A stretch of 34,396 nucleotides of DNA from Phormidesmis sp. RL_2_1. GTDB lineage: Bacteria; Cyanobacteriota; Cyanobacteriia; Phormidesmidales; Phormidesmidaceae. The notes below the pieces were generated by a model. It saw only the letters and a program-made list of their open reading frames with translations. It was not told the DNA's origin and did not search any database. A program made the translations under genes and the position numbers. Of the stretch, positions 977-32,085 are shown piece by piece. The DNA lies in the NCBI GenBank assembly GCA_012033015.1, contig JAAUPS010000021.1:1-34396 (forward strand), read 5' to 3'. The stretch's first letter is position 1, and each line of letters starts with the position of its first letter.

Positions 977-2215
977 ATGTTGAACAGGTTGAACAGGTTG
1001 AACAAGTTGAACGGGTTGAAGCGTTTGTTGAAATTGGTGCCCTTTAAGCGGGTGCCTTTGGCTTGGCTGAACCTCACCCACGATCGCAAACGCTTTGCAA
1101 CATCGCTGGCAGGGGTGGCATTTGCGGTCATGCTGATGTTTATTTTCACAGGCTTTATGAACGCCCTGTACGACTCCCAAATACAGCTACTGACCAAGCT
1201 GAATGGAGAAGTGATTGTCGTCAATCGCTTAAAGAGCAATATGTTTGTGCCCCGCTCTTTTGCCCGCAGACGTCTCTACCAAATCCGAGCTTTTGACGGT
1301 GTAGCCGATGCCTATCCGTTCTATTTGAGTGAGGGCAATTGGAAAAATCCCCTGAGCAAAAAGTCTTTTTCTGTTCGGACTTTAGCCTTTAGTTTGGGCG
1401 ATCCGGTACTCACCATGCCAGAGATCAATCGCCAGCTTGCGGCCTTGCAACTTCCTAATACGGCCTTAATGGATAGTCGAGCCCGCCCTGAAATTGGCCC
1501 GACTGAAGCAGGTATTGTTTCTGAGCTAGCAGATCAAACCCTGCATATTGTGGGCAGCTTTGAGCTAGGCACCGATTTTGCTGCGGGCAATGGCAATTTG
1601 GTGATGAGCGATGTCAACTTTTTGCGCTATTTTGCCAATCGAGGCCCTGAGGAAGAGCCGCGCAGCTTTGCCACGGTTGATTTGGGCATTGTTAAGTTAG
1701 AGCCAGGAGCGGATATTGCTAAAACGGTAGCAGCCCTACAAGCGGCCCTACCAGAAGATGTCAGTGTCTTGCCAAAAGATGGCCCCACTGGCTTTGTCAT
1801 GCGTGAGCGGCTTTATTGGCAAGACAATACCAGTATTGGCTTTGTGTTTTCGCTGCTGACCAGCATGAGTTTTGTGGTGGGGATCATTTTGGTGTATCAA
1901 ATCCTCTATACCGATGTCGCTGATCACTGGGCTGAATATGCGACGCTCAAGGCGATGGGCTATACCAATTACTATTTGCTGACGGTGGTGCTACAGGAGG
2001 CGCTCTTTCTCTCACTGTTGGGGTTTATCCCTGGTTTTTTGATCAGTAACTTGCTGTATGCGGGGGCGGCCAATGCCACCGGGCTGTTTTTTCAGATGAC
2101 GACCCAGCGGGCGCTAAATTTATTCGTAGCAACCTTTATGATGTGTATTGTTTCTGGTGCTATTGCTGTTCGGAAAGTGCAGGCCACCGATCCTGCCGAA
2201 GTCTTTGGCGGTTAG
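977..2215 (+). CDS. devC: Second DevC-type ABC transporter permease
   Basis: Second permease of the same exporter, 412 residues from the ATG at 977. An in-frame ATG at 908 would overlap the previous gene by 67 bp and adds non-homologous sequence, so 977 is preferred; AGAGG at 962-966 can serve as ribosome binding site. One N-terminal transmembrane helix (about residues 40-60), a periplasmic domain with LGDPVLTMPEIN and RPEIGPTEAG, then three helices near the C terminus and the ending RKVQATDPAEVF. It aligns along its length with the preceding permease but is clearly diverged, so the pair is an old duplication and may form a heterodimer (inference). The first 15 residues (LNRLNRLNKLNGLKR) are encoded by a 9-bp tandem array and lengthen the usual short DevC N terminus before VPFKRVPLAWLNL. 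The ATPase gene follows after 23 bp. Confidence 0.92.
   Translation: MLNRLNRLNKLNGLKRLLKLVPFKRVPLAWLNLTHDRKRFATSLAGVAFAVMLMFIFTGFMNALYDSQIQLLTKLNGEVIVVNRLKSNMFVPRSFARRRLYQIRAFDGVADAYPFYLSEGNWKNPLSKKSFSVRTLAFSLGDPVLTMPEINRQLAALQLPNTALMDSRARPEIGPTEAGIVSELADQTLHIVGSFELGTDFAAGNGNLVMSDVNFLRYFANRGPEEEPRSFATVDLGIVKLEPGADIAKTVAALQAALPEDVSVLPKDGPTGFVMRERLYWQDNTSIGFVFSLLTSMSFVVGIILVYQILYTDVADHWAEYATLKAMGYTNYYLLTVVLQEALFLSLLGFIPGFLISNLLYAGAANATGLFFQMTTQRALNLFVATFMMCIVSGAIAVRKVQATDPAEVFGG
980..1024. repeat. 9-bp tandem array in permease N terminus
   Basis: Five units of TTGAACAGG (units 3-5 diverged) directly after the start codon of the second DevC gene. The unit is a multiple of 3 and encodes LNR/LNK/LNG/LKR, a basic amphipathic extension ahead of the first membrane helix. 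Confidence 0.9.
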
Positions 2216-2238
2216 TGGATGCACCTACAAGATAAATC

Positions 2239-2981
2239 ATGATTACCCCTTATTCAGAAGCGGTTTTTGTTCCTACCGATTCACCGCTGGCAATCAAAAT
2301 TGAGCATCTCAACTTTCACTTTGGCGTAGGTGAGATTAAAAACAGGTGCTTTTCGATATTTCGCTGGTGCTGCCCAGAGGGCAAATTATTATTTTGACAG
2401 GCCCTTCCGGCTCCGGAAAAACCACCCTACTGACCCTGATTGGGGCGCTGCGTACGCTGCAGTCGGGGAGTTTGCAGGTTTTGGGCCATGAGCTAGTAGG
2501 GCTGCGCACCCAAGAGCTAATTGATATTCGCCGCAATATCGGCTTTATTTTTCAATCTCACAATTTATTTGAGTCGCTAACAGCCAGCCAAAATGTAGAA
2601 ATGTCTGTTGAGCTGACAGGCAAGTTTGACACTAAGCGGCGGCAGGCAGCGGATATGCTGGCAAAGGTGGGGTTAGCCAATCGGGTGGACTATAAGCCAA
2701 AGGCCCTGTCGGGCGGCCAAAAGCAAAGAGTGGCGATCGCTAGGGCCATGGTCAACCGACCCCAAATTATCTTGGCCGATGAGCCGACCGCCGCCCTCGA
2801 TAAAGCCTCAGGGCGAGATGTGGTGACCCTCATGCGCCAGCTCTGCGAAGAACAGGGCAGCACCGTGCTGATGGTAACCCACGACAACCGCATCCTTGAT
2901 GTTGCCGATCGCATTATTAACCTCGTTGATGGTCGGCTAGAATCAGACACAACCCCCGATGAGTACCATCTAACTCACTAA
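2239..2981 (+). CDS. devA: DevA-type ABC transporter ATPase, single-base frameshift
   Basis: ATP-binding subunit of the DevBCA-like exporter. Starting from the ATG at 2239 the frame reads MITPYSEAVFVPTDSPLAIKIEHLNFHFGVGEIK, the standard DevA N terminus, then is lost. The rest (LFDISLVLPRGQIIILTGPS...) is in the -1 frame. The break is at the A-run 2338-2342: one more A would give GEIKKQVLFDISL and a 247-residue protein, the normal DevA length. Walker A is GPSGSGKTT, the signature LSGGQKQRVAIARAM, Walker B IILADEPTAALD and the H-loop VTHD; all lie after the break. A GTG at 2346 could start a 211-residue protein lacking the first beta strand, but no good ribosome binding site is seen. Either a sequence error, a true mutation or slippage. 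Confidence 0.88.
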
Positions 2982-3066
2982 GGGACTTGCGTGCAGAAAA
3001 TAATATTAATATCCCAGGCTGGAGTCAGGGTAAAAGGGCAAGGAGCAAAGGGAAAAGGTGGTATAG

Positions 3067-3092
3067 CACAGTAAGGATGCATTCTTGCTGTG
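3067..3092. repeat. Dispersed 26-bp palindrome, copy 1
   Basis: Arms CACAGTAAG and CTTGCTGTG around GATGCATT. One of four related copies in the window (also 6708, 11817, 30687), all intergenic. This one lies 85 bp after the devA stop. Confidence 0.8.
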
Positions 3093-3260
3093 TCTTGGTG
3101 AGCATTGAGACTATGAGGCCCTAAAATTTCTCTTAAGACTGTTTTTCTAATCACTTATTTTTTCACTGTTTCTCTCACATTGTTTTTCTAAACCGTTTCT
3201 GTAACATTGACATTTCTACAGCCCTTCGCGATTTCTAGCCAATTCTCTCCAGCGACTAGC

Positions 3261-3320
3261 CCAACCACTGGGTCAACCACTGGCCTCACCATTGGCCTCA
3301 CCACTGGCCCAACCACTGGT
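3261..3320. repeat. 12-bp tandem array upstream of nudC
   Basis: Five units related to CCAACCACTGGC immediately before the GAGGAG that precedes the nudC ATG. The array is open in the nudC frame from a TTG at 3207 and could encode a Thr/Gly repeat extension (TTGSTTGLTIG...), but the family does not have one. Confidence 0.85.
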
Positions 3321-3326
3321 GAGGAG

Positions 3327-4097: not shown

Positions 4098-4138
4098 TCA
4101 TCTGGCAAGCATCCCGCCATCATCTAAGAAAATGCCGA

Positions 4139-4834
4139 TTAGAACGCGCCAAAGTTGTAACCGACCCCTACCGTAACCCCAAAATCAGTGTCATTTAACA
4201 CCCCTAAGTTAGCCTGGGCGTTGAACGTAAACTGACGAGACAGCGGAATATCTGCCCCGGCTGAAAGCAACAGATTAAAATCGTCGCCATCATCATCATC
4301 CGCATAAGAAGCGCCAACTCCGGCATAGGGAATGAGTTGAAAGCCACCGATCTCAGCAGAATATCGAACAAAGTCGTAGGTGACAGGAACAAGTACAGAA
4401 AAATCGTCACCAATCAACACAGAAGGGCGCAAAGCGATCTGATCTGCGATCGCAATTTTGCTGATAACCGCAAATGACACATCATCGGCATAGCCAAAGT
4501 CAGCCCCCACCCCAATAAAACTGGAATTAGCAGCACGCCCCGACGTGCGCCGACGACCTTGAGCCAGTTCTACAGCAGATGGCTCTGCAGCCAGATAGCT
4601 TGACTCAGATGCAGCCTGCGACGTCGCCGGTTCAATCGGCATCAGCTCCACCGCAGATAAGCCTTCAGAGCGTTGTTCAGACGGTTGTTCAGACAATTGT
4701 CCAGACAATTGTCCAGACAATTGTTCAGACGGTAGATCGCTCAAAGGCTCTGCCTGTGCTTGTACAGGCAGAGATATGCCCATGATGAGCACAGCAAAGC
4801 CAAATGCACCCCAAAATCGCTTACTCACAAACAT
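4139..4834 (-). CDS. Outer-membrane beta-barrel protein (OmpA/opacity-like), secreted
   Basis: 231 residues. Signal peptide MFVSKRFWGAFGFAVLIMGI followed by SLPVQAQA. Next is a low-complexity linker (about residues 30-80) with SEQL/SGQL repeats. The C-terminal part (about 100-231) alternates polar and hydrophobic residues as in small beta-barrels (FIGVGADFGYADDVSFAVIS; the GVGASYADDDDGDDFN turn) and ends in VGVGYNFGAF, with a terminal aromatic residue as expected for BAM-dependent assembly. It resembles the OmpA-like/opacity barrel class of cyanobacteria, but I cannot assign substrate or function. The acidic DDDDGDD loop could bind cations (speculative). Divergent from the DUF4399 gene, with an 11-bp inverted repeat 72-96 bp upstream of its start that may be a shared operator. 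Confidence 0.8.
   Translation of the reverse strand: MFVSKRFWGAFGFAVLIMGISLPVQAQAEPLSDLPSEQLSGQLSGQLSEQPSEQRSEGLSAVELMPIEPATSQAASESSYLAAEPSAVELAQGRRRTSGRAANSSFIGVGADFGYADDVSFAVISKIAIADQIALRPSVLIGDDFSVLVPVTYDFVRYSAEIGGFQLIPYAGVGASYADDDDGDDFNLLLSAGADIPLSRQFTFNAQANLGVLNDTDFGVTVGVGYNFGAF
4672..4731. repeat. 12-bp tandem array in beta-barrel gene linker
   Basis: Five units of ATTGTCCAGACA/GTTGTTCAGACG coding on the minus strand for SEQ/SGQL-type repeats between signal peptide and barrel. In frame. Confidence 0.85.
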
Positions 4835-4905
4835 CTTGATGTACTTCTCCTCAGTGTTCTTTATAGAGTTCCTTATAGATCAAAAAGCCAGTTCACAGGA
4901 ATGTT

Positions 4906-4930: not shown

Positions 4931-5180
4931 ATATTAAGGCCGATTCCTTTACAAAATAATTCTGCAGATTAATTTTAATTTCTCTTGCTTGCTGCCGTTT
5001 CCTGTGCTTTTCATAACTTTGTACAGACTTTGTACAGTTTGAGAATATCGACTAATGCTGTCTTTAGCATGTGCCTATAGGCTGAGCAACAGTTTGTATT
5101 TAAGATGGTAGAGAGGCCATCATTGGGCCATGAACTCACAGCCACCCGGCGCAGCCACTACCTATTCCACTACCCCTACC

Positions 5181-5186: not shown

Positions 5187-5198
5187 AGAATTATATCC

Positions 5199-5693: not shown

Positions 5694-5705
5694 ACCCCAT
5701 AGCAC

Positions 5706-5765
5706 AGCGTAGAAACCAGCAGCGTAGAAACCCGCAGCGTAGAAACCCGCAGCATAGAAACCCAT
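5706..5765. repeat. 15-bp tandem array, intergenic
   Basis: Four units of AGCGTAGAAACCCGC between the DUF4399 stop and the NYN gene. Non-coding here. The rest of this 180-bp gap shows nothing recognisable. Confidence 0.9.
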
Positions 5766-6694: not shown

Positions 6695-6707
6695 CACGTT
6701 CATATAG

Positions 6708-6745: not shown

Positions 6746-7819
6746 TTAGCCTTTTGTTAAAATATCCATCACAATCTCTAACGTTTGGCTCAGGTGACTA
6801 GGCCCAGTGGGGAGTTGGGCCTGTGAATCAATTGGGCCAGAAGGGCCGTTGTGACTCACTGGGCCAAGGGAGATAAACTGCACTCGCCCTTCTGCTTTGG
6901 CCTGATTCCAGCTAGACCAAGCAATCAGCGGCCAGCGCTTAGGAAACATGACAGCACCCATTTTGGCCAAAAGATCGCGATCGCCCGTTAAATGATACAG
7001 CCGATCAATCGCTGCTACACCATTATTGCCACTGACGACCCCCGCCAAAGAAATCACCTCAATCGGCGCATCCAGCGCGTACTTAAGGTAGCTCACCGCC
7101 CCTAATGCCACCTGCGCGCCACCGCTGTAGCCCAACAGGGTAATCGGCGTACCGAGGCGATAGCCCTGCTGGCGCAAACTGTTCAAAATCACCTGCGCTG
7201 TTCCCCGATTGAACACCGGGCCGTAGCGATTATCGGTCGAAACTGCCACCTGAAAGGTATTGCGCAAATTGATAAAAATATCCAGCGGACTTTGAGGATT
7301 CCATGCCTCAATGCGATTAACCCAGCGCCAAAAAGATGCAAACGGTCTTTGCGCTGTCAGCGGACGATTGAGCGCAGAGTAGGCCATCACATTTTGAATA
7401 AACACCATATCTGCCGGTAACACCGCAGCTAGCCTATTCAAAAAGGTTTGCACCCGAGGCGGATAGTCAGCGCTGCTTTGAGAAATACCATCTAAATACA
7501 CAATGTAGCGACGCGGAGCCTGCACCGATGACCTATTGGCAACGCCTGTGAGCTGTGCAGGCAGCCTACAAGGAATATGAGTTTCAATGCCATCGCCATA
7601 CCAACCGGCCCACCAGCCCAACGACTCAAATGGTGATAATAACCCTGCCACCAGCAAAGCTATCAAACTGACGCGGGCCAAATCGAAAACCAAATTCAGC
7701 AGCTTACTGTTAAACGCCAAGTACCACTGCAGCCATTGAGCGTTGATCGGCGAGAGCAACACAATGGCCCCTACCGTCAACAAAATAACCGCGCTCAGCT
7801 TCACCCATCGTCTATTCAC
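6746..7819 (-). CDS. Membrane-anchored alpha/beta-hydrolase-like protein
   Basis: 357 residues from a GTG at 7819; no ATG start or ribosome binding site is visible, because a 13-bp tandem array begins 1 bp upstream. Two N-terminal hydrophobic helices (about 8-25 and 42-65) are followed by a soluble domain. RYIVYLDGISQSSADYPPRV starts the fold, and LLGYSGGAQVALGAVSYLKY carries a nucleophile-elbow motif (GYSGG, Ser about residue 231). The C-terminal part has LISLAGV-type strands (VISLAGVVSG) and a possible catalytic His in LGPVSHNGP. I know similar conserved cyanobacterial hypothetical proteins but no established function; lipase, esterase or acyltransferase activity is only inferred from the elbow. 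Same strand as the Yip1 gene upstream, 193 bp apart. Confidence 0.75.
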   Translation of the reverse strand: MNRRWVKLSAVILLTVGAIVLLSPINAQWLQWYLAFNSKLLNLVFDLARVSLIALLVAGLLSPFESLGWWAGWYGDGIETHIPCRLPAQLTGVANRSSVQAPRRYIVYLDGISQSSADYPPRVQTFLNRLAAVLPADMVFIQNVMAYSALNRPLTAQRPFASFWRWVNRIEAWNPQSPLDIFINLRNTFQVAVSTDNRYGPVFNRGTAQVILNSLRQQGYRLGTPITLLGYSGGAQVALGAVSYLKYALDAPIEVISLAGVVSGNNGVAAIDRLYHLTGDRDLLAKMGAVMFPKRWPLIAWSSWNQAKAEGRVQFISLGPVSHNGPSGPIDSQAQLPTGPSHLSQTLEIVMDILTKG

Positions 7820-7820
7820 A

Positions 7821-7943
7821 GATATTCATCACAAATACTCATCACAGATAGTCATCGCTGGATATTCATTACAGACACTCATCACAGATAGTCATCGCTG
7901 ATACTCATCACAGATAGTCATCGCTGATATTCATTACAGATAG
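7821..7943. repeat. 13-bp tandem array upstream of GTG start
   Basis: Nine units of GATAYTCATCACA / GATAGTCATCGCT (one 1-bp insertion at 7860), with a higher-order alternation of the two unit types. The array ends 1 bp from the start codon of the hydrolase-like gene, so it is the 5' leader of that gene. The unit is not a multiple of 3, in line with a non-coding position. Confidence 0.9.
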
Positions 7944-8741: not shown

Positions 8742-8839
8742 CCTTCAGCCAATGCTCCTTCGCCGTTCCGTTGGCTGATGCCTAGTGCTATCCCTAGATT
8801 GAGTATCTCTAAATTCACGCCTACTCGTTGATCGTTAAA

Positions 8840-8899
8840 ATACACTGCTAGATACACTGCTAGATACACTGCCAAATATATTGCTAAATACATTGCTCT
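8840..8899. repeat. 12-bp tandem array between pyrC and Yip1 gene
   Basis: Five units of ATACACTGCTAG (last two diverged). It lies just after the pyrC stop. On the minus strand it is open and would read YLAVYLAVYLAV, but that frame has no homology. Confidence 0.9.
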
Positions 8900-11779: not shown

Positions 11780-11816
11780 CTGAAAGCCTTGACTAGCAGC
11801 AACTCACTCACCAAGA

Positions 11817-11842
11817 CAAAGTAAGAATGCATCCTTACTTTG
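11817..11842. repeat. Dispersed 26-bp palindrome, copy 3
   Basis: Perfect 9-bp arms CAAAGTAAG / CTTACTTTG around AATGCATC. Best-conserved copy of the family; it lies 122 bp upstream of the flavoprotein-like gene. Confidence 0.85.
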
Positions 11843-11858
11843 CTACATGTAGCGTTTC

Positions 11859-11917
11859 TCACTTGGCTAGACTACAGATATTTCGGTGAAACCTTTACAG
11901 AACAACAGGCCAAGTGA
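11859..11917. mobile_element. 59-bp inverted-repeat element, copy A
   Basis: Bounded by TCACTTGGC and GCCAAGTGA (perfect 9-bp terminal inverted repeats). 52 of 59 positions match copy C at 34317-34375, and copy B at 32145-32203 is the same length. No coding capacity, so a MITE-like or REP-like non-autonomous element is inferred. Confidence 0.75.
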
Positions 11918-11930
11918 CTCGCGGTTCCCC

Positions 11931-11965
11931 GTTAGCGTAGCCTCGCCGTCGGCGTTATGCATCCG
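11931..11965. repeat. Companion module of the 59-bp element
   Basis: Begins GTTAGCGTAGCCTCGCCGTC and ends ATGCATCCG. It lies 13 bp from copy A; the same module is found beside copy B in the same relative orientation, so the two travel together. Confidence 0.7.
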
Positions 11966-12160: not shown

Positions 12161-12208
12161 ACAGAGCTATATAGGCACAGAGCCATATAAGCACAGGGCT
12201 ATAGAGAA
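12161..12208. repeat. 16-bp tandem array
   Basis: Three units of ACAGAGCYATATARGC (last one diverged), directly downstream of the 5-oxoprolinase stop. The unit is not a multiple of 3 and lies in non-coding DNA. Confidence 0.85.
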
Positions 12209-17123: not shown

Positions 17124-17427
17124 ATGACAGATTCTCTGCGCAAAAAGAAAATTCTCTCCGTAGGCATTGGGGCCCACGGGGTCGTAGCGGTCGGCGTAAC
17201 CGCCCATGGCATTTTTTCTATTGGCATCATTTCCCATGGCATTGTTTCTATCGGCGTGATTTCGATGGGCGTCTTTTCCGCTGGGATTGTCTCTAGTGGG
17301 GGTATTGGCTGGCGGTCTCATTTCGATGGGGGTAATGACAGCTAGCCCCTCTAGCATGGGGCTCATGACCCATGGCGAGCAGCACGATATGCAAATGCCC
17401 AACCACGATGACATGCAGCACCCATAG
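17124..17427 (+). CDS. Small pentad-repeat protein with Met/His-rich tail, single-base frameshift
   Basis: From the ATG at 17124 the protein reads MTDSLRKKKILSVGIGAHGV and continues as 5-residue units each ending in Gly (VVAVG VTAHG IFSIG IISHG). The register is lost at the G-run 17298-17302. Removing one G continues the same periodicity without a break (IVSSG VLAGG LISMG) and gives a 100-residue protein stopping at 17425-17427. The repeats suggest a very small beta-solenoid or a hydrophobic membrane-seeking sheet. The repaired tail reads LMTHGEQHDMQMPNHDDMQH: His, Met and Asp residues that could bind copper or another metal (inference). Similar Gly-pentad proteins exist in cyanobacteria, with no known function. 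Without repair, a 73-residue protein ends at 17345. Confidence 0.65.
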
Positions 17428-20504: not shown

Positions 20505-21815
20505 TCAATCGTCCCAGTTGCTTTCTTCTTTGAGGTTGGAGTTGAGGGTGGAGTTGAGGTTGGGTCTGGGTGGATCGGCAAGGGCGGCTTCGGCAGGCGC
20601 TGTAGTAGCCCCAAAGGGAACAGAGTTTGGAGCAGTGGGCTCAGAGGAATCTGAGGAATCTGAGGAATCTGAAGAAAATGAAACCGACTGCGCAGAATCA
20701 ATCGGCGGCTGTCGCCGGGGAATATCAATCACAGGCTTAGCAGGCTTGGGTCGAGTTAATGCGGTGATGAGGTCTGTAGCCCAACTGATGATAATGAACG
20801 GTGCTGCCAATAGGCTAGGTTTTTTCTGATTTTTGGGCGGAGCTGCCGATCGCTCTGCGGGGGGATCATCTGTCATCGGCGCATCTATGTCCCAATCATC
20901 ATTCCAGTCACTTTCGTTGGCAGCTTCGTTAGCGGCTTCGTTAGCGGCTTCGTTAGCGGCTTCGTTAGCGGTTTCGTTGGCGGTTTCGTTGGCGGTTTCG
21001 TTAGCGGCTACAGGGGTTACGGCTGCTCGGTTGCTGTCATCGGCGGCTGGTTTATCAGCGGCTGGTTTATTAGCGGCTGGTTCGATAAGGATAGACCTAT
21101 TGTCAGACTCGGGTTGATTTGCTTTCGAAAGCTCTGTTTCGCGCTGCCCTGCTTGAGCCGTGTCAGCGTCTTTGGTATCTGATTTAGTATCTGATTTAGT
21201 ATCTGAGAAAGATTCATCTGTAGCTGTTGCTGAGGGCTGCTCTGCTGTGATGTTAGGGCTTTCTATGGAGATCACTTTGGCCTCGGCAAAGCTGGGCAAG
21301 TTTTCGTCTAGTTGGGCGATCGCATCTTCTGAGACAGGTTCATCGGGCATATCTGCCAAAATGCCATCTTCGACAAACTCATAGTCATACACCGGGCGTC
21401 GCCGAGGATCAATACGCTCATCCAAAGCTCGCTTTTCCAAACGCAGCGGCACCGGTTCAGTAGGGGCAATCCGCAGTTGATTGATCTGATTTTTGGCCCA
21501 ATCACTCACCACTTCTGGGGTAATCACCACCGGCGTTTGCTGGTAGACAGGCGTTTTTTCTCGGCGGATAGTCAGCGTTTGCCAAGCCAATGCACCAATC
21601 AGCATGACCGCTGCCATCTGTCCTAGCAAGACCAACAGCGTCATTTGCCCCGCGCCAAACCACAGCACAAGGGCATAAACCAAGCCCAAGCCACTCCATG
21701 CAAAATCTAATGGACGGTGCACTTCTGGGTAAAAGAAGGCCGCCAGATAAAAAGTAAAGCTGCCTAGACCTAGCAACACAGCTAGGATATCAGCCAGTAA
21801 GGTATTTGCGAGCAT
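20505..21815 (-). CDS. Ycf66-like membrane protein with long repetitive C-terminal region
   Basis: 436 residues from the ATG at 21815; an in-frame ATG at 21869 adds 18 residues, and neither has a clear ribosome binding site. The first ~95 residues fit the Ycf66 family of cyanobacteria and plastids: three hydrophobic segments (ILAVLLGLGSFTFYLAAFFY; SGLGLVYALVLWF; LLVLLGQMAAVMLIGALAWQ) and the PEVHRPLDFAWSGLGL loop, then TLTIRREKTPVYQQTPVVIT. The function of Ycf66 is unknown. A long acidic disordered region follows, containing RRPVYDYEFVED and several in-frame arrays (DTKS, ANET/ANEA, KPAAD, SSD). Near residue 355 a further hydrophobic segment (FIIISWATDLITAL) is seen. The sugar transferase gene lies directly upstream on the same strand, and IleS downstream. 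Confidence 0.75.
   Translation of the reverse strand: MLANTLLADILAVLLGLGSFTFYLAAFFYPEVHRPLDFAWSGLGLVYALVLWFGAGQMTLLVLLGQMAAVMLIGALAWQTLTIRREKTPVYQQTPVVITPEVVSDWAKNQINQLRIAPTEPVPLRLEKRALDERIDPRRRPVYDYEFVEDGILADMPDEPVSEDAIAQLDENLPSFAEAKVISIESPNITAEQPSATATDESFSDTKSDTKSDTKDADTAQAGQRETELSKANQPESDNRSILIEPAANKPAADKPAADDSNRAAVTPVAANETANETANETANEAANEAANEAANEAANESDWNDDWDIDAPMTDDPPAERSAAPPKNQKKPSLLAAPFIIISWATDLITALTRPKPAKPVIDIPRRQPPIDSAQSVSFSSDSSDSSDSSEPTAPNSVPFGATTAPAEAALADPPRPNLNSTLNSNLKEESNWDD
20641..20676. repeat. 9-bp tandem array in Ycf66-like gene
   Basis: Four units of TCTGAGGAA, coding SSD repeats on the minus strand; in frame. Confidence 0.9.
20913..21008. repeat. 12-bp tandem array in Ycf66-like gene
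   Basis: Eight units of TTCGTTAGCGGC (variants GGC/GGT), coding ANEA/ANET. Longest array in the window by unit count within a gene. Confidence 0.95.
21046..21090. repeat. 15-bp tandem array in Ycf66-like gene
   Basis: Three units of GCTGGTTTATCAGCG (last diverged), coding KPAAD-type repeats; in frame. Confidence 0.85.
21175..21210. repeat. 12-bp tandem array in Ycf66-like gene
   Basis: Three units of GTATCTGATTTA (last diverged), coding SDTK; in frame. Confidence 0.88.
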
Positions 21816-23360: not shown

Positions 23361-23396
23361 ATCTACCCTTGTATACAGATCTACCCTTGTATACAG
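23361..23396. repeat. 18-bp direct repeat
   Basis: Two identical adjacent copies of ATCTACCCTTGTATACAG, intergenic; each holds the dyad GTATAC. Confidence 0.9.
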
Positions 23397-23414
23397 ATAT
23401 GTCTGAATACGTTC

Positions 23415-23455
23415 CAAAAAATAGCACTCAAAAAATAGCACTCAAAAATAACATT
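23415..23455. repeat. 14-bp tandem array
   Basis: Two identical copies of CAAAAAATAGCACT and a diverged third, 50-85 bp after the beta-helix gene stop. Confidence 0.85.
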
Positions 23456-23501: not shown

Positions 23502-26052
23502 TTAAGGCAGCACACAGCTACTATCTGTACTGCCAGCGCTGGTAATTGTGGTAGGCCCAAGCGCATTCAAAGGCGCTGTTGGAAAAGTCGCCCTGCCGCT
23601 GACAACAATAGCACCAACATTATTGGCAAAAGTATCATACCCAAAGGTGCCTGCTGGTACGATCGTTGTTGATAATGCTGGTGCTGCAACAGACGTAGCC
23701 GTAATTCCATTCAACACGTAATAACCATTTGGGGCAGTATTATTTTGTAGCTTTAAACACATTGATGGTGTGTTTGTCGGTGCTGGGGGCGCTGCAGAAC
23801 CGCTAAAAGAGAGACATCGTTGCCAGCGATCGCACCAACACCCGCCCCTGCAGCGTCATTCCCTTGAATGACCGCATTCACCGTCGGCGCAGCCGGTGTC
23901 AAAGCAGAAGCCGTATTTGTCACTAAGTTGTTAACCACCGCAATTTTCTCATCTTGGCTATCAATCACAGTATTGTTCTCAATCGCCAAGGCTAAATCGC
24001 CATCGGCAAAAGTAGCCACCACAATGCCAAAGCCACCATTACCCATGACCGGCAGTGGACTAACCGGATTACGTGTAATGCCGGTTTGGGTGACACCACT
24101 TTGCTGCACCCGATTGTGTGAAATTGTGAGTTGTCCGGCTTGGTCACTGTTATGGAAAAATAAAATACCATCTCCCCCCGAACGACTGACCGTATTTCCC
24201 GACACAGTGCCAGCAAATATCGCATGACAAGACATAGCGGTTGTATTACCGCAAGTTTCCAACTCTATTGCTGAGTTGCCTGCTCGATCAATTTGATTGT
24301 TCGTCACACTCACGGTCACTTGAGACATATCATTAGCCTCCAAATCAATGCCATCACCATCACTCCTGAGAATATTGCTAATCTGGTTCTCACTGATAGC
24401 TAAGGTCAAATCAGCCGTTCCCGTTAGCTCAAACCTCATACCGTCATTAGTAGCAGTATCAACAATATTGTTGGCAATAGTCACCTTTGCTTGCCCTGAA
24501 TTTTGGGTCAAAGAGATAGCGCGATTGGTAGCATTGGTGATCAAATTGTTGCGAATCACCACATCCCCCATCCCATTGACAAGATTCACCCCATTAGCAG
24601 CACCCGCAATTTCAAAACCAGAAACACTGTTATTGCCCCCGGCCAGCGTAATACCGTTGACACCTGCAGCCGCAACCAATGGACGAGCCCCTGTACCCAT
24701 ACTCGGCAGCGTCACCAGACCAAACTGAGTGGGCAATGTTGTTGTTGTTCCTATATCGCCATAAACCTGCACCCCGGCTGGAATGGTAAAAGGCTCTAAA
24801 TTGTTTGTTCGGCTATCGCCTGCTTGAACATACACCACTTCGCTGGAACTCACGTTTCTCAGCGCCGTATTATTAGCATCTGTAGTACCCGCCCCTAATG
24901 TCGTAAACGGACTACTGACAGCACCATTGCCCTGATTAGGATTAGTCGCATTAGGTGTCACATGGCGAAAAGTGTAGGCTTGACCAGTATCTGGATCAGT
25001 CGCGATCACTGTTTCGCTGGGCATCCCACGCACTTCACTGCGCACAACAACACTACTATTGCGAGTTAAGTCCTCTGCTGCCCTTGCCCATAAAGGCGAT
25101 TGGCCCGATGATTGGCCCGATGATTGACCAGATGATTGACCAGATGATTGACCAGATGATTGGCCCGATGATTGACCAGCGTCGCGATTGAGCTTACCAG
25201 AGCGTTGAGAGCCCCCGCCAAACCCAGTCCCAATTGAAAAAGCCACCTGAGTGCCAAAAATACCATCACTCTGGACACCTAGGCCCAGCCTCAAACTGTT
25301 GGCCACCCGGTGATCTAAGCGCAGAGCCCCTCCTAGGGCATCGCCTTGATAATAAACTCTGCCGTAGCCCCACAGGCTACCAACACCGCCAAAATGACCT
25401 AACCGTAATCCAGCTTCTAAATCTGCGCCGCCCAATACTTGCTCAAACGACTGCAAGCCTCCTTGGGTAACAAATAACTGATTTCCCTGAAAAAAGAATT
25501 TAAAACTTGATGAGTTGCCGTAGCATCACCAATTTGACTGCTGGTGTTACCGATCGGAATATAGCTATTAAAATGCACATCCCAAGTATCACCCAATAGC
25601 TCCATGCCCAGCCCTAGCTGGTTGAATGTGCTGTTTCCTGTATCTCGAACGTCATAAGACGCGTAGCTGCCTAACAGCATGTTGTCTAGACGCCAGCGCT
25701 GACCCAAAGCAAAAGTTCCACCCCAATGGCCACCACTATCTACACGTGCACTGCTGCTAATGAATGTGACGCGCTTTCCGGCTGTTTGTATTAGCGGAAT
25801 AAATCCATTAATACGAGTAAAGCTGCGTCCGTTGTCACCATTACGTGGGGAATTAAAATCAGCGCTAAAGCTGGGCGTTAAGCGCAAGTCGGCAGCAGAA
25901 CCAGCCGATGCCACCGTCGGTGTTGCTATCGATGGCACTGGGTCTGTCTCAACGGCAGACTTTAAAGCGATATCTTGGGCAACAACAGGAAACGCCAAGT
26001 AAGCTGCCAAACCGGCGGTAGACAAAGTAATTACAGAGAGGTTGCAAAACAT
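23502..26052 (-). CDS. Inverse-autotransporter-like surface protein with beta-helix passenger, two frameshifts
   Basis: 850 residues after repair. Signal peptide MFCNLSVITLSTAGLAAYLA (FPVVAQ) and an N-terminal beta-barrel (about 55-260) with FSADFNSPRNGDNGRSFTRI, DNMLLGSYASYDVRDTG, LGLGMELLGDTWDVHFNSYI and a GVGSLWGYGRVYYQGDA-type segment. Next comes a QSSG linker made by a 12-bp array, then a right-handed parallel beta-helix (about 330-740; repeats such as NSVSGFEIAGAANGVNL, VVIRNNLITNATN). A short C-terminal domain with two Cys (MCLKLQNNTAPNGYYVLNG ... SSCVLP) follows. Frame breaks lie at the T-runs (plus-strand A-runs) 25490-25495 and 23805-23808; one extra T in each restores FFQGNQLFVTQGGLQSF and SLFSGSAAPPAPTNTPSM. 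An outer-membrane adhesin or surface fibre is the likely role. If the breaks are real, the gene is dead. Confidence 0.82.
25098..25181. repeat. 12-bp tandem array at barrel-passenger junction
   Basis: Seven units of GATTGGCCCGAT or GATTGACCAGAT, in frame, coding SGQS repeats. The mix of two unit variants, each in runs, points to unit duplication after divergence. Confidence 0.95.
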
Positions 26053-26087: not shown

Positions 26088-26126
26088 CTGAGTATTCTGG
26101 CTGAGTATTCTGGCTGAGTGTGCTGG
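26088..26126. repeat. 13-bp tandem array
   Basis: Three units of CTGAGTATTCTGG (third diverged), 36-74 bp upstream of the surface-protein ATG. Confidence 0.92.
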
Positions 26127-26220
26127 CAGGCACGATATCGATACAGGTTTCCCTAGCCTAAGGACTGACTAACAAAATTTGATGACATGGAAACGTTGTA
26201 AGCACCTCGACAGACGCTAT

Positions 26221-26280
26221 AGCTCTTACAGCATTAGCTCTTACAGCATTAGCTCTCACAGCATTAGCTCTCACAATATT
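26221..26280. repeat. 15-bp tandem array
   Basis: Four units of AGCTCTTACAGCATT (TC/CC variants), just after the stop of the LIC_10190-like gene. Confidence 0.93.
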
Positions 26281-26300: not shown

Positions 26301-28184
26301 TTAGTGAGGCCCAGGAGCAACAAAACCCCCTTTTATACCTAGCTGTGGGTTTCGTAGTTTTATATCGGATCGCGGGTTTTGAACGCAGGGTAGTGTGGCT
26401 GCCCAGCATTCTCCTCTTTCGTTTTGCACGACGAAATAGACAATGCCGTTTAATGACTGTACTTGCGATGTTGGGATAGCCAAAGGCGGCGGTAAAAATA
26501 GGCGATCGCGCCCTGTTTCACTGGCCTGGATAGAGACAACCATTGCCGACAAAAGGCCAACGGTCAAGAGAGAAGCCGCCCTCGGTTTAGTCACTAATTT
26601 GAGCATCGGGTTGAGGCATATGCGGTGGCGCAATGGGCCTAATCGCTGTGTCAGCAAATGCTCGTGATGATGCTCCTGATGATGCCCCTGCCAACGCTCA
26701 AGTATGATTGCTCCAGTGAGCGCAGGCAACAGCAGTAGGTATCCCATCCCGAAGCGAAAGAGTGGTGCTGCTTGCAGCATAAAGCCAATACCGATGACAC
26801 TCAAAATTACCAGCCAAACCATCGCCATACGCCGCGATCGCTCAAATATCTGGGGCGATCGCCTCAACAAACCGACTGCCATCGCCCCTGAAAGAACAAG
26901 CAAAAGCACAATCAGCTTGCTCGACTGATTAAAGGCAAACCACTGCTGAAATAGCCATAGATATGGATTTACATCCGGTGGTGGCTGACCAAACCAAGCC
27001 GTGCCACCACGGGAAGCAGCCAAAAGAGATTGCATTTGAGCAGCAGGCGGCGACCATGGCAGATCGAGGCAGGCGAACGTTGAAGGGTATAGCGGACAGC
27101 CTGAAACCACAATTTCTGACGTTAAAAACGGTAAAAGGAGACCACCTATCACTAAACTACCAATGGCTAACCCTTTGAAACTGAGATGATTGTAAAAATA
27201 AAACGCACCAGCTACGACCAGCAGCGGTAGAGCCGTGAGTTTCATTGAAACGGCTGCTACAGATAGCACGAGCGGCAGCAGCGCTGGGCCAATAGCATCA
27301 CCCATAGTCGATGAATGAGATCCCTCAACAGGGACATTGGATGGTTCGACATTGGATGGCTCGACATTGGATGGCTGGCTCTGCTGATAAAAGCCTTTAG
27401 CAGAATCTACCGTCGGTTCGGCCACGATTAAAATCGACCATGCCACCATGACGGTCAATAGCGCGATCACAATATCGGGTGAGGCCGATACTGTAATCAC
27501 TGACAGCAGATGGGTTTGGGTCACCAGCAGGCACACCGTCAACGACAACAGCAGCAACAGCCAGTCGCTCAAAAGAGCCCGCTGGCGAAGGATACGCCCT
27601 AGCACAATGGCCATTTGCCCAATCGCCACCAGTAAAATAAACCCATTCATCACAGCGCTGGCACGGCCTTCTAGTCCAGGCGGATTAAATGGCGCGGCAA
27701 TCGCAAACCAAGCAGACATAAAGCCAAACTGTCCATTCAGCAGCGCCAGCCCAGGGGTCACCCCATATTCACTCAGCCAACGAATCAGGCCATAGTGATA
27801 CAGCCCCGTATCTATCCAAGTAACTTTCTGGCTGGCAAAAACCGCGATTATCCCCGCCCATAGTCCATAGCCCATCAGCCAAACTCGTAGGGCCACCGAT
27901 AGGCGAGCCCACCCATCTCTCAACTCAGCGCGTACCGCCCCAAAGCTCAACGCGAACAATAGCCACACAGCAGCTACAGCCAAACCTATCGGCGGCGAAA
28001 GCGGCAAAAAAATTGCCGTAGCCAACAGAGAAATAGCCAGAATAGATAGGCCCAGCCAAACGGCGGCGATCGCCCGATCGCCCAGCCGCAGTTGTTGCTC
28101 CACCTGCATCCAGTGCAGCACAAGGCACCCTACGATCAAACAAAGGGCGATGAGGCCTGTCCAAACCAGCACAAAATAGAGCAT
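26301..28184 (-). CDS. Polytopic membrane protein, LIC_10190-like
   Basis: 627 residues, ATG at 28184, with about 12 hydrophobic segments. The first periplasmic loop region reads WIDTGLYHYGLIRWLSEYGV then TPGLALLNGQFGFMSAWF, which resembles the conserved motif of LIC_10190-type bacterial membrane proteins; Asp and His in DTGLYHY are comparable to the catalytic region of GT-C glycosyltransferases. Function unknown; a lipid-linked sugar transferase or polysaccharide-related role is inferred. A 15-bp array codes SNVEPSNVEP in a cytoplasmic or periplasmic loop (about residues 275-290). The soluble tail (about 570-627) holds two Cys (GECWAATLPCVQ). Starts 28 bp after the stop of the next membrane protein gene, so the two are one operon. 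Confidence 0.8.
   Translation of the reverse strand: MLYFVLVWTGLIALCLIVGCLVLHWMQVEQQLRLGDRAIAAVWLGLSILAISLLATAIFLPLSPPIGLAVAAVWLLFALSFGAVRAELRDGWARLSVALRVWLMGYGLWAGIIAVFASQKVTWIDTGLYHYGLIRWLSEYGVTPGLALLNGQFGFMSAWFAIAAPFNPPGLEGRASAVMNGFILLVAIGQMAIVLGRILRQRALLSDWLLLLLSLTVCLLVTQTHLLSVITVSASPDIVIALLTVMVAWSILIVAEPTVDSAKGFYQQSQPSNVEPSNVEPSNVPVEGSHSSTMGDAIGPALLPLVLSVAAVSMKLTALPLLVVAGAFYFYNHLSFKGLAIGSLVIGGLLLPFLTSEIVVSGCPLYPSTFACLDLPWSPPAAQMQSLLAASRGGTAWFGQPPPDVNPYLWLFQQWFAFNQSSKLIVLLLVLSGAMAVGLLRRSPQIFERSRRMAMVWLVILSVIGIGFMLQAAPLFRFGMGYLLLLPALTGAIILERWQGHHQEHHHEHLLTQRLGPLRHRICLNPMLKLVTKPRAASLLTVGLLSAMVVSIQASETGRDRLFLPPPLAIPTSQVQSLNGIVYFVVQNERGECWAATLPCVQNPRSDIKLRNPQLGIKGGFVAPGPH
27336..27380. repeat. 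15-bp tandem array in LIC_10190-like gene
   Basis: Three units of ATTGGATGGCTCGAC, in frame, coding SNVEP in a loop. Confidence 0.9.
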
Positions 28185-28212
28185 CTAAAATAATATCCGC
28201 CAGCCATAATAA

Positions 28213-30594
28213 TTACGGCATTAGCTTGTAAATAACAGGTGCTTTCGTCGCATCTTTACCAAAAACAGGTATAAAAACCTGCCGCTGTCGATTGAGCTGC
28301 ACCAAAACCTCATATTCTTTCTGTGGCACCCTAGGGCCGGTAGCGACCCACTGGATATTTTGTCGGTATAGATACGCTAACCAATCGCTAGGCCGTTCGC
28401 GATCGAAGGGAATATTTAAAACCTGTCGGTTCAGATGTTTGCCATAAAAAAGATAGCTGCGATTGCTAGAAAAATAGGCAATCCTCTCATCAGGCTGAAC
28501 ATTCTCTTCAATGTAACGATAAATACCCTGATAGAGTTCATCTCGCAAGCCATCTCGACTCTGGCGCATTACCCAACTACCCCACACCAACAACACAACG
28601 CATATCCCTATGCCAAACAAATACAAACACAAACGAGACGACAGCTTTCGCCGTTTCAACACACAACCGTCAACCACGCTGGCAACTTGATTTGGATAGA
28701 GACGAGCGCCCACAACCGTAAATATCAGGACAAGCAGTCCCATATAAACCAATGCATAAACGCTCATACCGGCCAAGTTGTCCGTTAACAATTGCCAAGC
28801 TTGAGCGATCGCAGTTACAGGATCACGACCAAATGTGCTGATGATTTGACTTGGCCAAATAGCTTTTTCAGCAACAAAAGCTCCTTTTCTAATAGCCTCA
28901 AAGGCAATGCTGCCTATAATGCCTGAAAAGCTGCTGAGCAAAGTTATCCCTAAGACGGCCCGTGGTGAAATTTGTAATACCGTAGCCGTGACAGCCGCAC
29001 CCATGCCTAAAATGCCCAAAACAGGAAATCCATACCGAAGATTAAAACCGACTAATGGAGAAAACTCCCCCACGTCGGAACCGGCAGCACTATAGGGCGT
29101 ATTCCAATACAAAAAGGTAGTTGAAAGCAGCAAAAAAACTAAACAAAAGAGAGTTTTACGGTTGTCATCGTCGCCTTTGAGCCAAGCGATAGGTAACCAA
29201 ATAACCTGTAAAACCAGCGCTAAAAAAGGCAGTTGTAGCCGAGCAACAATGTGAATAACATAGGTTTTCCAATCGCTTAAATTGAAAAAATCAAACTGAT
29301 AGGTAAGGGTGAATCGCTGGAAATACAAAAGCTTTGACCACAGCGCATCTAAATCAAATCTGACCAAATAGGATTTTACTGCATCAGCTTTTGCAACAGC
29401 GCTATCCACACCAGCGCTGCTTTCTTCAACAAGCTGAGACTTTGCCGTCAGGCTGGCAATCTCTAGGGCATGGTGCACATACCAAAAAGCACCCAGCCAC
29501 AATAAAAAAATAAGCCCAAGATAGAGAATGATAACTTGTCTCTTAGGCGCAATAGTCTTGAGCGGATTCAGCTTTGATTGATTGGGAAGATGCTGGTGTT
29601 TCCGGTAACGTAGCTCTAGAGCAATCATGATAATCACTAAAAAAGCACCATAAATAATTCCAGGCGTTTTAATCCCAGCCAGCATCCCTAATGAAACGCC
29701 AAACATCGATAAATCTAACGGCTCACGGGTTTCGTTATAAGTCAGTGCAAAACATAGCGCTACCGTAAAAAAAGCCGCTAGGGGTAAATCAATATGCAGC
29801 GTGGTGACATGGTTCAGCAGCATGGGCACGCTCAATACTAAAGATGTTGCCGCCAGGCTGTAGAACCGGGCAGCACCAACCCTGATGCACAGTAGGTACA
29901 CCGCCAGTCCAAGCATTGTCCAAGCCAGCAGCATTGGCAATGCCACTAGAAAATCTTCTTGAAAGGGCAATAAGCACAGCACAGAAAGAATGTGCCAATC
30001 ATAGGGATATTGATTAGCAGAAGGATGGCTAAAAATCCAATAGCCAGCAGGATCCAATAAAGTTAGGCTGCCTGTTTGATACCAACGGGCAACAGCAGGC
30101 AGATGAAACCAGAGAGAGTCGTAGTTGGTTATCGGCTGAGTCGCCACTCTGATCAAAAGAATGGCCCCGACGACGAGAATCGAGATGAATATCAACCATT
30201 CTGAAGGCTTGAGGGGTTGCCTATGCTGTAACAGTGATGGCGATGTAGCAGAAGGCGATATGGCAGAAGGTGATATAGCAGAACCAGTAGGGGCTTTTGT
30301 GGTTTTACACAGCAACAGTCCCAGCAAAAACATCGTAGCTTCTATGGTGATCACAGGGCCTAGCCAGAGCTGATGCACACTGCCTAATAACAGCCCCAAA
30401 GCGACTTGGACGATGCTCCAAACAGTAGAGATGAACAGCCACCTGTAGGGAAAAGATGCGACATGCGCTGAAGAATGATAGGTCTGTAGTAGGACAAAAG
30501 CGAGCGATACAGGGCCAGCTACAATCATCAAGAATGTGAACAATTCCCAAAGATGCTGTGTCATCGTCATATGAGCAATCCCCGGCAAAACCAT
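28213..30594 (-). CDS. Glycosyltransferase family 39-like membrane protein
   Basis: 793 residues from ATG 30594; ATG 30570, with GGGGA about 8 bp upstream, is an alternative start that removes 8 residues. About 12-14 membrane helices. The first large loop has TNYDSLWFHLPAVARWYQTG followed by HPSANQYPYDWHILS, similar to the acidic loop motifs of GT-C enzymes (ArnT/PMT type, polyprenyl-phosphate sugar donors). A C-terminal periplasmic domain follows (about 690-793, EENVQPDERIAYFSSNRSYL, WVATGPRVPQKEYEVL). The role is probably glycan transfer on the outer face of the inner membrane; acceptor unknown. A 15-bp array codes SAISPSAISPSATS near residues 105-118. In operon with the LIC_10190-like gene downstream. 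Confidence 0.82.
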   Translation of the reverse strand: MVLPGIAHMTMTQHLWELFTFLMIVAGPVSLAFVLLQTYHSSAHVASFPYRWLFISTVWSIVQVALGLLLGSVHQLWLGPVITIEATMFLLGLLLCKTTKAPTGSAISPSAISPSATSPSLLQHRQPLKPSEWLIFISILVVGAILLIRVATQPITNYDSLWFHLPAVARWYQTGSLTLLDPAGYWIFSHPSANQYPYDWHILSVLCLLPFQEDFLVALPMLLAWTMLGLAVYLLCIRVGAARFYSLAATSLVLSVPMLLNHVTTLHIDLPLAAFFTVALCFALTYNETREPLDLSMFGVSLGMLAGIKTPGIIYGAFLVIIMIALELRYRKHQHLPNQSKLNPLKTIAPKRQVIILYLGLIFLLWLGAFWYVHHALEIASLTAKSQLVEESSAGVDSAVAKADAVKSYLVRFDLDALWSKLLYFQRFTLTYQFDFFNLSDWKTYVIHIVARLQLPFLALVLQVIWLPIAWLKGDDDNRKTLFCLVFLLLSTTFLYWNTPYSAAGSDVGEFSPLVGFNLRYGFPVLGILGMGAAVTATVLQISPRAVLGITLLSSFSGIIGSIAFEAIRKGAFVAEKAIWPSQIISTFGRDPVTAIAQAWQLLTDNLAGMSVYALVYMGLLVLIFTVVGARLYPNQVASVVDGCVLKRRKLSSRLCLYLFGIGICVVLLVWGSWVMRQSRDGLRDELYQGIYRYIEENVQPDERIAYFSSNRSYLFYGKHLNRQVLNIPFDRERPSDWLAYLYRQNIQWVATGPRVPQKEYEVLVQLNRQRQVFIPVFGKDATKAPVIYKLMP
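30239..30283. repeat. 15-bp tandem array in GT39-like gene
   Basis: Three units of GGCGATATGGCAGAA, in frame, coding SAISP repeats between two membrane helices. Confidence 0.9.
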
Positions 30595-30686
30595 ACCTAG
30601 CGTTGTTCAGTTATCCTAAATTAAATCCTCCTGATAAATCCTCCTAAATCGGAGCCAACTTACCTAGATATCGCACCTAGATATCG

Positions 30687-30712
30687 CAAAGTAAGGATGA
30701 ATTCTGACTTTG
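30687..30712. repeat. Dispersed 26-bp palindrome, copy 4
   Basis: Arms CAAAGTAAG / CTGACTTTG (one mismatch) around GATGAATT. The flank GCGAGTCGAGTT matches copy 2. Lies 93 bp upstream of the GT39-like gene. Confidence 0.78.
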
Positions 30713-30837
30713 CGAGTCGAGTTGACTATTATCCTATAGCGGCTTGAGCAGACAAGACTGTTCTAAGCCACTCGACAGATGCAACATTATAATATGCCTT
30801 GATATGTACGGAGATGGCATGAGGCCATCCGGAAAAT

Positions 30838-30889
30838 AGCATGGCCAAAGAGCATGGCCAAAGAGCATGGCCAAAGAGCATGGCTAAAT
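30838..30889. repeat. 13-bp tandem array
   Basis: Four units of AGCATGGCCAAAG (last diverged), downstream of the alpha/beta hydrolase gene; unit not a multiple of 3, non-coding. Confidence 0.93.
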
Positions 30890-30949
30890 GCTCGCAATAC
30901 CTCACCGTTATCGGCCTGAGCTACTGAACTGAGAAGCGATGGGTATTTT

Positions 30950-31956
30950 TTACGCTTTTGCCGACGCCGACAATGCCTTCAGGGCAAAATATTGAATCTT
31001 CACTAAATGGCCAGCCGTTTTGTACTCGGCGGCTGCGTTGTGATGAACATCCGATTCCACTAAAATCAGTGTCTTAAGGCTACGTGCAGCTTGGTAGAGA
31101 TTTTGACCCATGACCGCTGGAATGAGCGGATCACCCGTGGCGTGAATGAGTAAAATCGGTACCCGCAGGCTGCTCACTTTTCTCAGCGATTCAAATTTTT
31201 GATTGACAATCCACCGCACTGGTAATAACCGCGAGTAGCGGTAGCGCTTGACCATTTCTGCCATGGAGGTAAACGAATTGTGGACGATAATGCCTGCAAG
31301 ATCAGGATGTCTGGTCGCTAGGTCTATCGCGATCGCACCCCCCAAAGAATGTCCATACAAAAAATCTCATCTGCTGCGATTTCTTGTACTTGCGTGAGAT
31401 AGGTCAGTGCTGCTTCTGCATCTTCATATAGCGAGGTCTCCGAAGGAAAGCCCCCCTCACTCAGGCCATAGCCGCGATACTCCACCAGCAAAACATTAAA
31501 ACCCAACTGCCTCAGCCAAAATGCCTGAGTCACATTAAACCCAATATTGAGATCCGCCCCATGAAAATAAATCAGTGTGCCAATGCGATTTTTAGGATGG
31601 GGAATCCACCAGCTATGAAGATGTTCAAGATGCTTAGCCGCCTTATCTGCCGGGATCCAAACCTCCTCATATTTAAGATTGTAAGAGGCTGGTGTGGTTT
31701 GTAGAACATGGGAAGGGTGATACAGCAGCCTAGGCTGAATCACCCAAAGGGTGGCTATTAACAGCAAGTAAAAAAGGAGAATTGCGATCGCTAATCGCTT
31801 CAGTCGTAGCCTCCATTGACGGCGAAAACGACGCTGTAACAACAGCTTGAAAATAATCCAGACGACGACAACCGGCACCCATACATCAGCGATATTGCTC
31901 AAAAATAAGCCCAACTGCACAAACAGTGTGAAAAACAATGAGGCTATTGCTGCCAT
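30950..31956 (-). CDS. Membrane-anchored alpha/beta hydrolase, single-base frameshift
   Basis: 335 residues after repair, from the ATG at 31956 (a TTG at 31974 is also in frame). An N-terminal membrane segment (about 1-25) and a second (about 50-75, LAIAILLFYLLLIATLWVIQ) precede the catalytic domain: LIYFHGADLNIG oxyanion region, VEYRGYGLSEG, and nucleophile elbow YGHSLGGAIAIDLA. The charge-relay Asp is in LLIHATGDPLIP and the His in VESDVHHNAA. This is the Bem46/ABHD13-type layout. The frame is lost at the T6 run (plus-strand A-run 31359-31364) just before the elbow; one extra T gives ADEIFLYGHSLGG. Substrate unknown. Without repair, the active serine is separated from the N-terminal half. 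Confidence 0.88.
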
Positions 31957-32040
31957 ATCGATGCAACTATCCAATCCAGCGCTAAAATTAAAGCTTAAAA
32001 GCTTGGCAGCGTTTGGGCTGGCGTGTGATAAAGATACTTA

Positions 32041-32085
32041 ACAAAGATACCGAAAACAAAGATACCGAAAACAAAGATACCGAAT
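32041..32085. repeat. 15-bp tandem array
   Basis: Three units of ACAAAGATACCGAAA, intergenic. Confidence 0.93.

Follow-up and report, generated by a model that had tools for sequence, protein, structure and literature searches.

Short tandem arrays in Phormidesmis sp. RL_2_1 as the record of a duplication process, with topoisomerase I as candidate agent

Contig JAAUPS010000021.1 of the cyanobacterium Phormidesmis sp. RL_2_1 (genome G000), which is analysed here in its entire length of 34.4 kb (contig C5, referred to as the window), contains short tandem arrays both within genes and in the gaps between them. Such arrays are genome-wide and lineage-specific, and they record a mutational process whose products are tandem duplications of about 8–19 bp, which mostly arise without pre-existing repeats. 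At the junctions of these duplications C is favoured at the fourth base outwards, as read on the strand that leads into the copy. Within genes the arrays that survive are nearly all in frame, and those that can be aligned sit in tolerant loops. We read the arrays, with a probability of roughly 0.6, as the record of a duplication process that is filtered by frame and by tolerant loops and has topoisomerase I (TopA) as its agent; it is from the junction signature that we infer the enzyme. More tentatively, and at slightly less than even odds, some wild cyanobacteria might be natural topoisomerase-I duplication mutators, in which resealing errors of TopA seed 8–19 bp repeats and variation in loops and spacers.

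Arrays in the window, across lineages and in relation to coding frame

The array set of the window was determined with Tandem Repeats Finder (TRF; score at least 50, units of 8–24 bp) and comprises 27 arrays. Dinucleotide-preserving shuffles of the window (n = 20) contained no array in 19 cases and one array in the remaining case. A preliminary description of this DNA had also listed 27 arrays; 23 of them are in the TRF set (starts within about 10 bases), three are weaker (10158 and 10692, both score 48; 23076, score 45), and for the one at 16829 TRF reports nothing down to score 30. The arrays at 17207, 20530, 26658 and 30662 belong to the TRF set and lie outside that list. As had been described, the unit sequences look unrelated.

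With identical TRF settings and units of 9–19 bp, 204 arrays were found in 286 kb of G000, window included (0.71/kb), while G001, a congener, has 698 in 1,137 kb (0.61/kb). Five other congeners, G002 to G006 (55–74 kb each), have 0.15, 0.12, 0.17, 0.22 and 0.04/kb. The comparison with other cyanobacteria that the preliminary description had named as a check therefore shows unequal densities, about 3 to 18 times those of the five congeners. The mean density is 0.05/kb in 13 more genomes of the family (samples of 20 kb), 0.05/kb in class-level genomes (n = 7), 0.08/kb in named cyanobacterial loci (n = 22, one of which, L037, overlaps a family sample) and 0.04/kb in non-cyanobacterial loci (n = 56). 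Individual 20-kb samples differ (0.20/kb in G042, 0.15/kb in G007), and one locus from a Parabeggiatoa metagenome-assembled genome (MAG; L052, 15.6 kb, units of 8–24 bp) is high for a non-cyanobacterium with 0.45/kb.

A density of 0.74/kb was found in 84 kb of a distant cyanobacterium, the MAG Thermosynechococcaceae cyanobacterium MS004 (G058). Without locus L098, which drew attention to this genome and holds 21 of its 62 arrays, the density is still about 0.68/kb, and all 23 coding arrays of MS004 are in frame. The uncultured Pseudanabaenaceae MAG G044 (71 kb) has 0.30/kb, or about 0.19/kb without its first locus L035 (12 of 21 arrays), and is not clearly high. In a five-protein tree G000 and G001 are unresolved within a star-like genus (supports 45–59 except for G002 + G003 and the outgroup). 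The tree of the 5-oxoprolinase pairs G000 with G001 (98/89) and places G002–G004 with G009, apart from G000, G001, G005 and G006, making gene transfer likely in this gene.

The G000 draft is 5.56 Mb long and consists of 436 contigs (completeness 95.7%, contamination 7%). Some of its essential genes are frameshifted, which could suggest assembly artefacts of a poor draft, and the target-site duplications left by excised transposons would require no microhomology either. Both origins are hardly credible to us. The arrays cannot be put down to the frameshift-rich draft, since a similar density is found in the separate assemblies of G001 (98% complete, 140 contigs) and MS004; frame filtering would be unexpected for artefacts, and duplication lengths spread over 8–19 bp, unlike the footprint of one element.

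Units of 9–19 bp account for 204 of the 219 TRF arrays of any period in G000 and for 698 of 756 in G001. Cyanobacteria are known to contain short tandemly repeated repetitive (STRR) sequences, heptanucleotide repeats that form fixed families with a 7-bp unit. The arrays described here resemble them as short tandem repeats in cyanobacteria, but their units look unrelated to each other and are not 7 bp long (5–8 bp in only 2 of 219 arrays in G000 and 15 of 756 in G001), so that the distinction from STRR made in the preliminary description holds. Bacterial minisatellites, or variable-number tandem repeats, likewise have tandem units of 9–19 bp that are in frame within genes; they concern a few loci, whereas about 0.6–0.7 arrays per kb extrapolate to thousands of arrays per genome here. 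A survey of satellites in prokaryotes reports a similarly species-specific abundance and multiples of three in genes, but counts long satellites under a stricter definition, with few species above 4 per Mb (PMC6749651); its main text nowhere uses the word cyanobacteria. A survey of Leptolyngbya-like strains for microsatellites deals with another repeat class (PMC8619395). Judged by titles and abstract openings in the one library searched, we recognised no account of such an abundance of short duplications in the literature on bacteria or cyanobacteria.

In the window, arrays were assigned by hand to genes or gaps of the open reading frame (ORF) list. Every one of the 15 arrays within genes has a unit length of 9, 12 or 15 bp, whereas a multiple of three is found in 5 of the 12 gap arrays. 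The gap array at 3262 was scored by its 13-bp consensus (its TRF period is 12), array 971–1020 lies across the start codon of the second FtsX-like gene, and array 7816–7942 has two levels, 13 bp nested in 66 bp. For G000 and G001 together (1.42 Mb; genes from a home-made ORF caller, gene-edge arrays, 23 and 115, excluded), multiples of three make up 329 of 357 coding arrays, as against 154 of 407 between genes (Fisher odds ratio 19, p 6.5e-60). Unit length is thus tied to coding phase as had been proposed, and these counts support the idea of one process that duplicates local segments of 9–18 bp and is filtered by frame.

The three arrays of the 5-oxoprolinase-like protein lie in loops that congeners have shorter, and G001 has different repeats in two of these three loops. 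Because the repeats within one and the same loop differ between G000 and G001, these arrays are not old and frozen. The same pattern was found for the Ycf66-like linker and for one loop of the 627-aa protein. Of seven array-bearing genes compared with the available congener sequences, three gave no alignment; the described location of in-gene arrays in linkers and loops is true of those that could be aligned. Inside genes the density is 0.29–0.30/kb and between genes 1.75–2.03/kb (G000 and G001), making arrays 6–7 times rarer in genes, as would be expected if most of them are merely tolerated. Their distribution agrees with tolerance and so far gives no hint of a benefit, and the rarity in genes leaves the suggested protein-tuning unsupported. 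The earlier observation is right, and larger in extent than the window shows; its reading as a process is right and its adaptive reading is not supported.

Size, microhomology and junctions of young duplications

The raw process was read from isolated exact two-copy duplications, termed young duplications, of which 270 have units of 9–19 bp in the whole set. The birth spectrum between genes was obtained from 55 kb of G000 and 111 kb of G001 in comparison with shuffles. At 5–7 bp the counts match or come close to those of the shuffles, a strong excess begins at 8 bp and reaches 16–19 bp, and a single event (23 bp) was found at 20–60 bp. Coding young duplications of at least 9 bp are nearly all multiples of three. 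In low-density samples young duplications are likewise mostly short and low in microhomology, just rarer, so the array-rich genomes may raise a general process and not a private one.

An additional match at the junction is lacking in 81 of the 224 young duplications of 10–19 bp, and 148 of 224 have at most 2 bp of such microhomology. Most births are therefore unlike classical replication slippage, in which arrays are created and expanded between short direct repeats through more slipping or less correction. As an explanation of the whole set we consider slippage unlikely: birth between direct repeats does not apply to most young duplications, the size spectrum has little or no excess at 5–7 bp and only the one event at 20–60 bp, MutS1 and RecJ were matched in 16 of 16 genomes, and a base preference at the junction is not predicted. 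It does have a share of the evidence, since 59 of the 224 have at least 5 bp of extra match, some of which may come from slippage, and the higher-order periods (24 and 66 bp) suggest that whole blocks were copied through homology once the arrays had been born. The minority with longer junction matches may use flanking repeats or be worn three-copy arrays.

For the junction sequence, position −4 was defined as four bases outside the copy on the strand reading into the copy, with the end junction taken as reverse complement. The discovery set consisted of 89 zero-microhomology duplications (178 ends) from G000 (286 kb) and G001 (737 kb). C at −4 was present in 68 of the 178 ends (0.37 at the start, 0.39 at the end; background 0.22–0.23), and T at −5 was also raised. 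The replication test was fixed before new G001 contigs were analysed, and C at −4 was then set down as the hypothesis before the young duplications of other genomes and the ambiguous junctions were tested. When discovery and first replication are pooled, the largest deviation of 16 positions is at −4, and 0 of 2,000 shifted-junction controls reached it.

The preference was found again in the young duplications of other cyanobacteria (36 of 92 ends, 23.1 expected), in multi-copy arrays of G000 and G001 with a whole-number copy length, a set conceived afterwards (51 of 124 ends, 28.5 expected), and in whole-number arrays of other cyanobacteria (10 of 22, 5.1 expected). Over the four later exact-junction cyanobacterial sets, these three and the new G001 contigs, C stands at −4 in 110 of 278 ends (background 0.234, one-sided binomial p 1.3e-9 with ends treated as independent). 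Where one base is ambiguous (x = 1), some alignment with C at −4 exists in 39 of 50 cases (31.5 expected), and multi-copy arrays with one extra base have it in 31 of 100 (22.6 expected). At least one end with C at −4 is seen in 110 of 171 events (69.6 expected) and both ends have it in 22 events (24.9 expected if independent), which does not separate one nick from two. No strand bias relative to genes was seen among 88 in-gene events (C at −4 in 31 sense, 36 antisense).

Topoisomerase I and other candidate mechanisms

A preference for C at −4 is known for cleavage by bacterial topoisomerase I, which binds the 5´ end covalently and the 3´-OH end through noncovalent contacts (PMC7587558, PMC6101483). 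The E. coli topA R168C mutator is reported to generate de novo tandem duplications of 2–19 bp, independent of existing repeats, with no significant change in point-mutation rate (Bachar et al., PMC6954433). In our reading TopA would cut a single strand where C stands at −4, so that the 3´-OH is free and the 5´ end stays on its tyrosine. Before resealing, a polymerase would extend the 3´-OH by 8–19 nt, and TopA would join the held 5´ end to the extended 3´ end, so that a looped extra copy arises, which replication would fix as a tandem duplication. Alternatively, two opposed TopA nicks followed by fill-in might give the same product. Units that already exist would later be gained or lost by ordinary slippage or recombination. 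The high rate in G000, G001 and MS004 might be due to a TopA variant or paralogue, to altered supercoiling or to poor repair of TopA–DNA complexes.

The duplications reported here share with the topA R168C mutator that they are short, head-to-tail and derived from non-repeated sequence. The size ceiling corresponds (intergenic young duplications of 8–19 bp, one at 20–60 bp), as does the independence of repeats seen in the microhomology counts. They differ in being natural and fixed in wild genomes and not of laboratory origin, and in covering 8–19 bp with little or no excess at 5–7 bp. The C at −4 is an addition that lies outside the description of the published mutator, at whose duplication hotspots no known topoisomerase I cleavage motif was reported (PMC6954433).

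The frames of TopA1 and of DNA polymerase I (Pol I) are split in G000 and intact in G001. In TopA1 of both genomes (broken past the active site in G000), the residues that bind the −4 cytosine are conserved together with the YMRTDS block. The alignment shows equivalents of E. coli R168, R169, D172, R173 and Y177 (RR..DR...Y; numbering as given in PMC7587558) in both. A second TopA-like gene of 784 aa is present in G001 (G001:C45:132378–134732). A by-eye alignment gives it D and K at the positions 169 and 173, which bind the −4 cytosine in E. coli TopA, and the gene itself holds 12- and 15-bp arrays.

Several observations weigh against our reading, in addition to the young duplications with longer junction matches. 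As TopA1 of G000 and G001 keeps the R168 position, the published R168C change is not the cause, which is also a difference from the laboratory mutator. At 5–7 bp the largest departure is an excess of 6-bp duplications in G000 (21 versus 12.4 in shuffles). The first replication (400 kb of new G001 contigs) gave C at −4 in 13 of 40 ends (background 0.21, p 0.06) and is not significant alone, and T at −5 had no clear excess in the same sequence. Non-cyanobacterial young duplications have no excess of C at −4 (7 of 34, 10.9 expected). More ambiguous junctions add little (x = 2, 23 of 28, 21.9 expected; x = 3, 11 of 11, 9.8 expected; x = 4, 9 of 9, 8.5 expected), and the control arrays with at least three extra bases have a slight excess themselves (216 of 840, 196.8 expected, p 0.065). 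In the multi-copy arrays of G000 and G001 the C excess is one-sided (17 of 62 at the start versus 34 of 62 at the end), though their orientation is arbitrary. With C at −4 in 132 of 342 ends, the signature is a preference and no rule.

Tandem duplications free of microhomology are also predicted by staggered breaks, that is, two opposed nicks of any origin that are filled in and sealed by an end-joining ligase, as in mammals and plants. Such products are known with Cas9 nickases in eukaryotes, and the small tandem duplications described there at staggered breaks depend largely on Ku80 in mouse cells (PMC8355091). An ATP-dependent-ligase-like gene was found in 7 of 7 genomes of the genus searched, but it is present in the low-density G002–G006 too and was not found in high-density MS004. 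Ku (PF02735) was found in 1 of 18 genomes searched and not in G000, G001 or MS004, and the C at −4 is left unexplained by such breaks. We hold this origin to be improbable. Because no Ku was found in G000 or G001, joining needs another agent, and TopA would be able to supply this step.

If the Pol I 5´ nuclease or SbcCD no longer processed flaps or hairpins, small loops or flaps could be sealed in, an explanation that we regard as very unlikely. In MS004 a long SbcC match is lacking, and its SbcD match falls below the cut-off, which is exceeded in the other 15 genomes. G000 and G001, however, have SbcD over the cut-off and a long SbcC (below the curated cut-off, as in 12 of 16 genomes), and their Pol I 5´ nuclease domain is present, with conserved blocks that align.

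None of the genes surveyed tracks array density over the set of genomes searched. The Pol I 5´ nuclease domain is present in 55 of 58 genomes, G000 and G001 included; long SbcC and over-cut-off SbcD are missing only in G058 among 16. Ku, with its one occurrence, and ATP-dependent ligase (11 of 16 genomes) do not follow density, and the matches in all 16 genomes speak against loss of MutS1 or RecJ as cause. Y-family polymerases have one match each in G000 and G001, none in G006, G013, G042 and G055, and up to 5 elsewhere. The unusual mismatch-repair or translesion polymerase genes for which the preliminary description had suggested a search were not seen in this survey: the single Y-family match is equally found in low-density G003 and G004.

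If the TopA reading is true, a natural mechanism would exist by which tandem repeats are born out of unrepeated sequence, a natural counterpart of the laboratory mutator, and a mutator of this type may have arisen more than once, in this genus and in the distant MS004. Hundreds of events with legible junctions have been sampled from these genomes; their sizes fall within a narrow range, microhomology is slight, and the preferred junction base points to a candidate enzyme. The junction signature is the most useful new fact, since it makes the origin of tandem repeats testable. The arrays also show how the loops of many proteins can be remodelled when mutational input is biased and selection keeps the frame.

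Features of the window

The arrays and the young duplication of the window are listed in Table 1.

Table 1. Tandem arrays and duplications in the window, with positions and TRF scores.
Feature	Position	Strand	TRF score and remarks
9-bp array, 5.6 copies, N-terminus of second FtsX-like gene	971..1020		72; aligned to G005
12/13-bp array, 24-bp higher order, gap before NADH-pyrophosphatase-like gene	3255..3319		74–79
12-bp array, outer-membrane-protein-like gene	4664..4733		64–94
Young exact 11-bp duplication, zero microhomology, C at −4 on both sides	5016..5037		44
15-bp array, gap	5705..5763		104
13-bp array with 66-bp higher-order duplication, gap	7816..7942		133–213
12-bp array, gap	8838..8897		78
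16-bp array, gap	12161..12203		65
15-bp array, interdomain loop, 5-oxoprolinase-like gene; insertion versus congeners	13825..13881		100
15-bp array, 4.2 perfect copies, 5-oxoprolinase-like gene	14124..14186		126
15-bp array, 5-oxoprolinase-like gene; loop absent in G002–G004	15137..15196		92
15/30-bp periodic stretch, small gene; in TRF set, probably ordinary protein repeat	17203..17278	+	51–94
12-bp array, Ycf66-like gene	20530..20563		61
9-bp array, Ycf66-like gene	20644..20676		59
12-bp array, 8 copies, Ycf66-like linker	20913..21009		145
15-bp array, Ycf66-like linker	21039..21082		74
12-bp array, Ycf66-like linker	21171..21206		65
18-bp array, gap	23361..23398		76
14-bp array, gap	23415..23448		68
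12-bp array, 6.8 copies, beta-helix-like gene	25098..25179		122
13-bp array, gap	26088..26127		66
15-bp array, gap	26220..26275		98
12-bp array, 627-aa gene without Pfam match	26658..26690		52
15-bp array, same 627-aa gene as array at 26658; insertion versus G004	27333..27376		81
15-bp array, 793-aa gene without Pfam match	30239..30283		69
13-bp duplication, gap	30662..30688		54
13-bp array, gap	30834..30888		96
15-bp array, 3 perfect copies, gap	32040..32084		90

Two stretches, 17203–17278 and 16549–16605, are coding sequence with a 15/30-bp period; one encodes a hydrophobic repeat of the GI(V/I)SI type and the other belongs to a pentapeptide-repeat gene, and both look like ordinary protein repeats. 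The genes at 17501–20409, 2288–2981, 5880–6694, 23753–26052 and 30950–31974, that for isoleucyl-tRNA synthetase included, are split into overlapping or adjoining frames. Such split frames in the G000 draft are probably sequencing indels and not true pseudogenes. In addition, a dispersed intergenic repeat of about 75–160 bp is found at 11807–11965, 32085–32220, 34300–34396 and 30680–30780; its partial matches in congeners number in the dozens, and G004 and G003 account for many.

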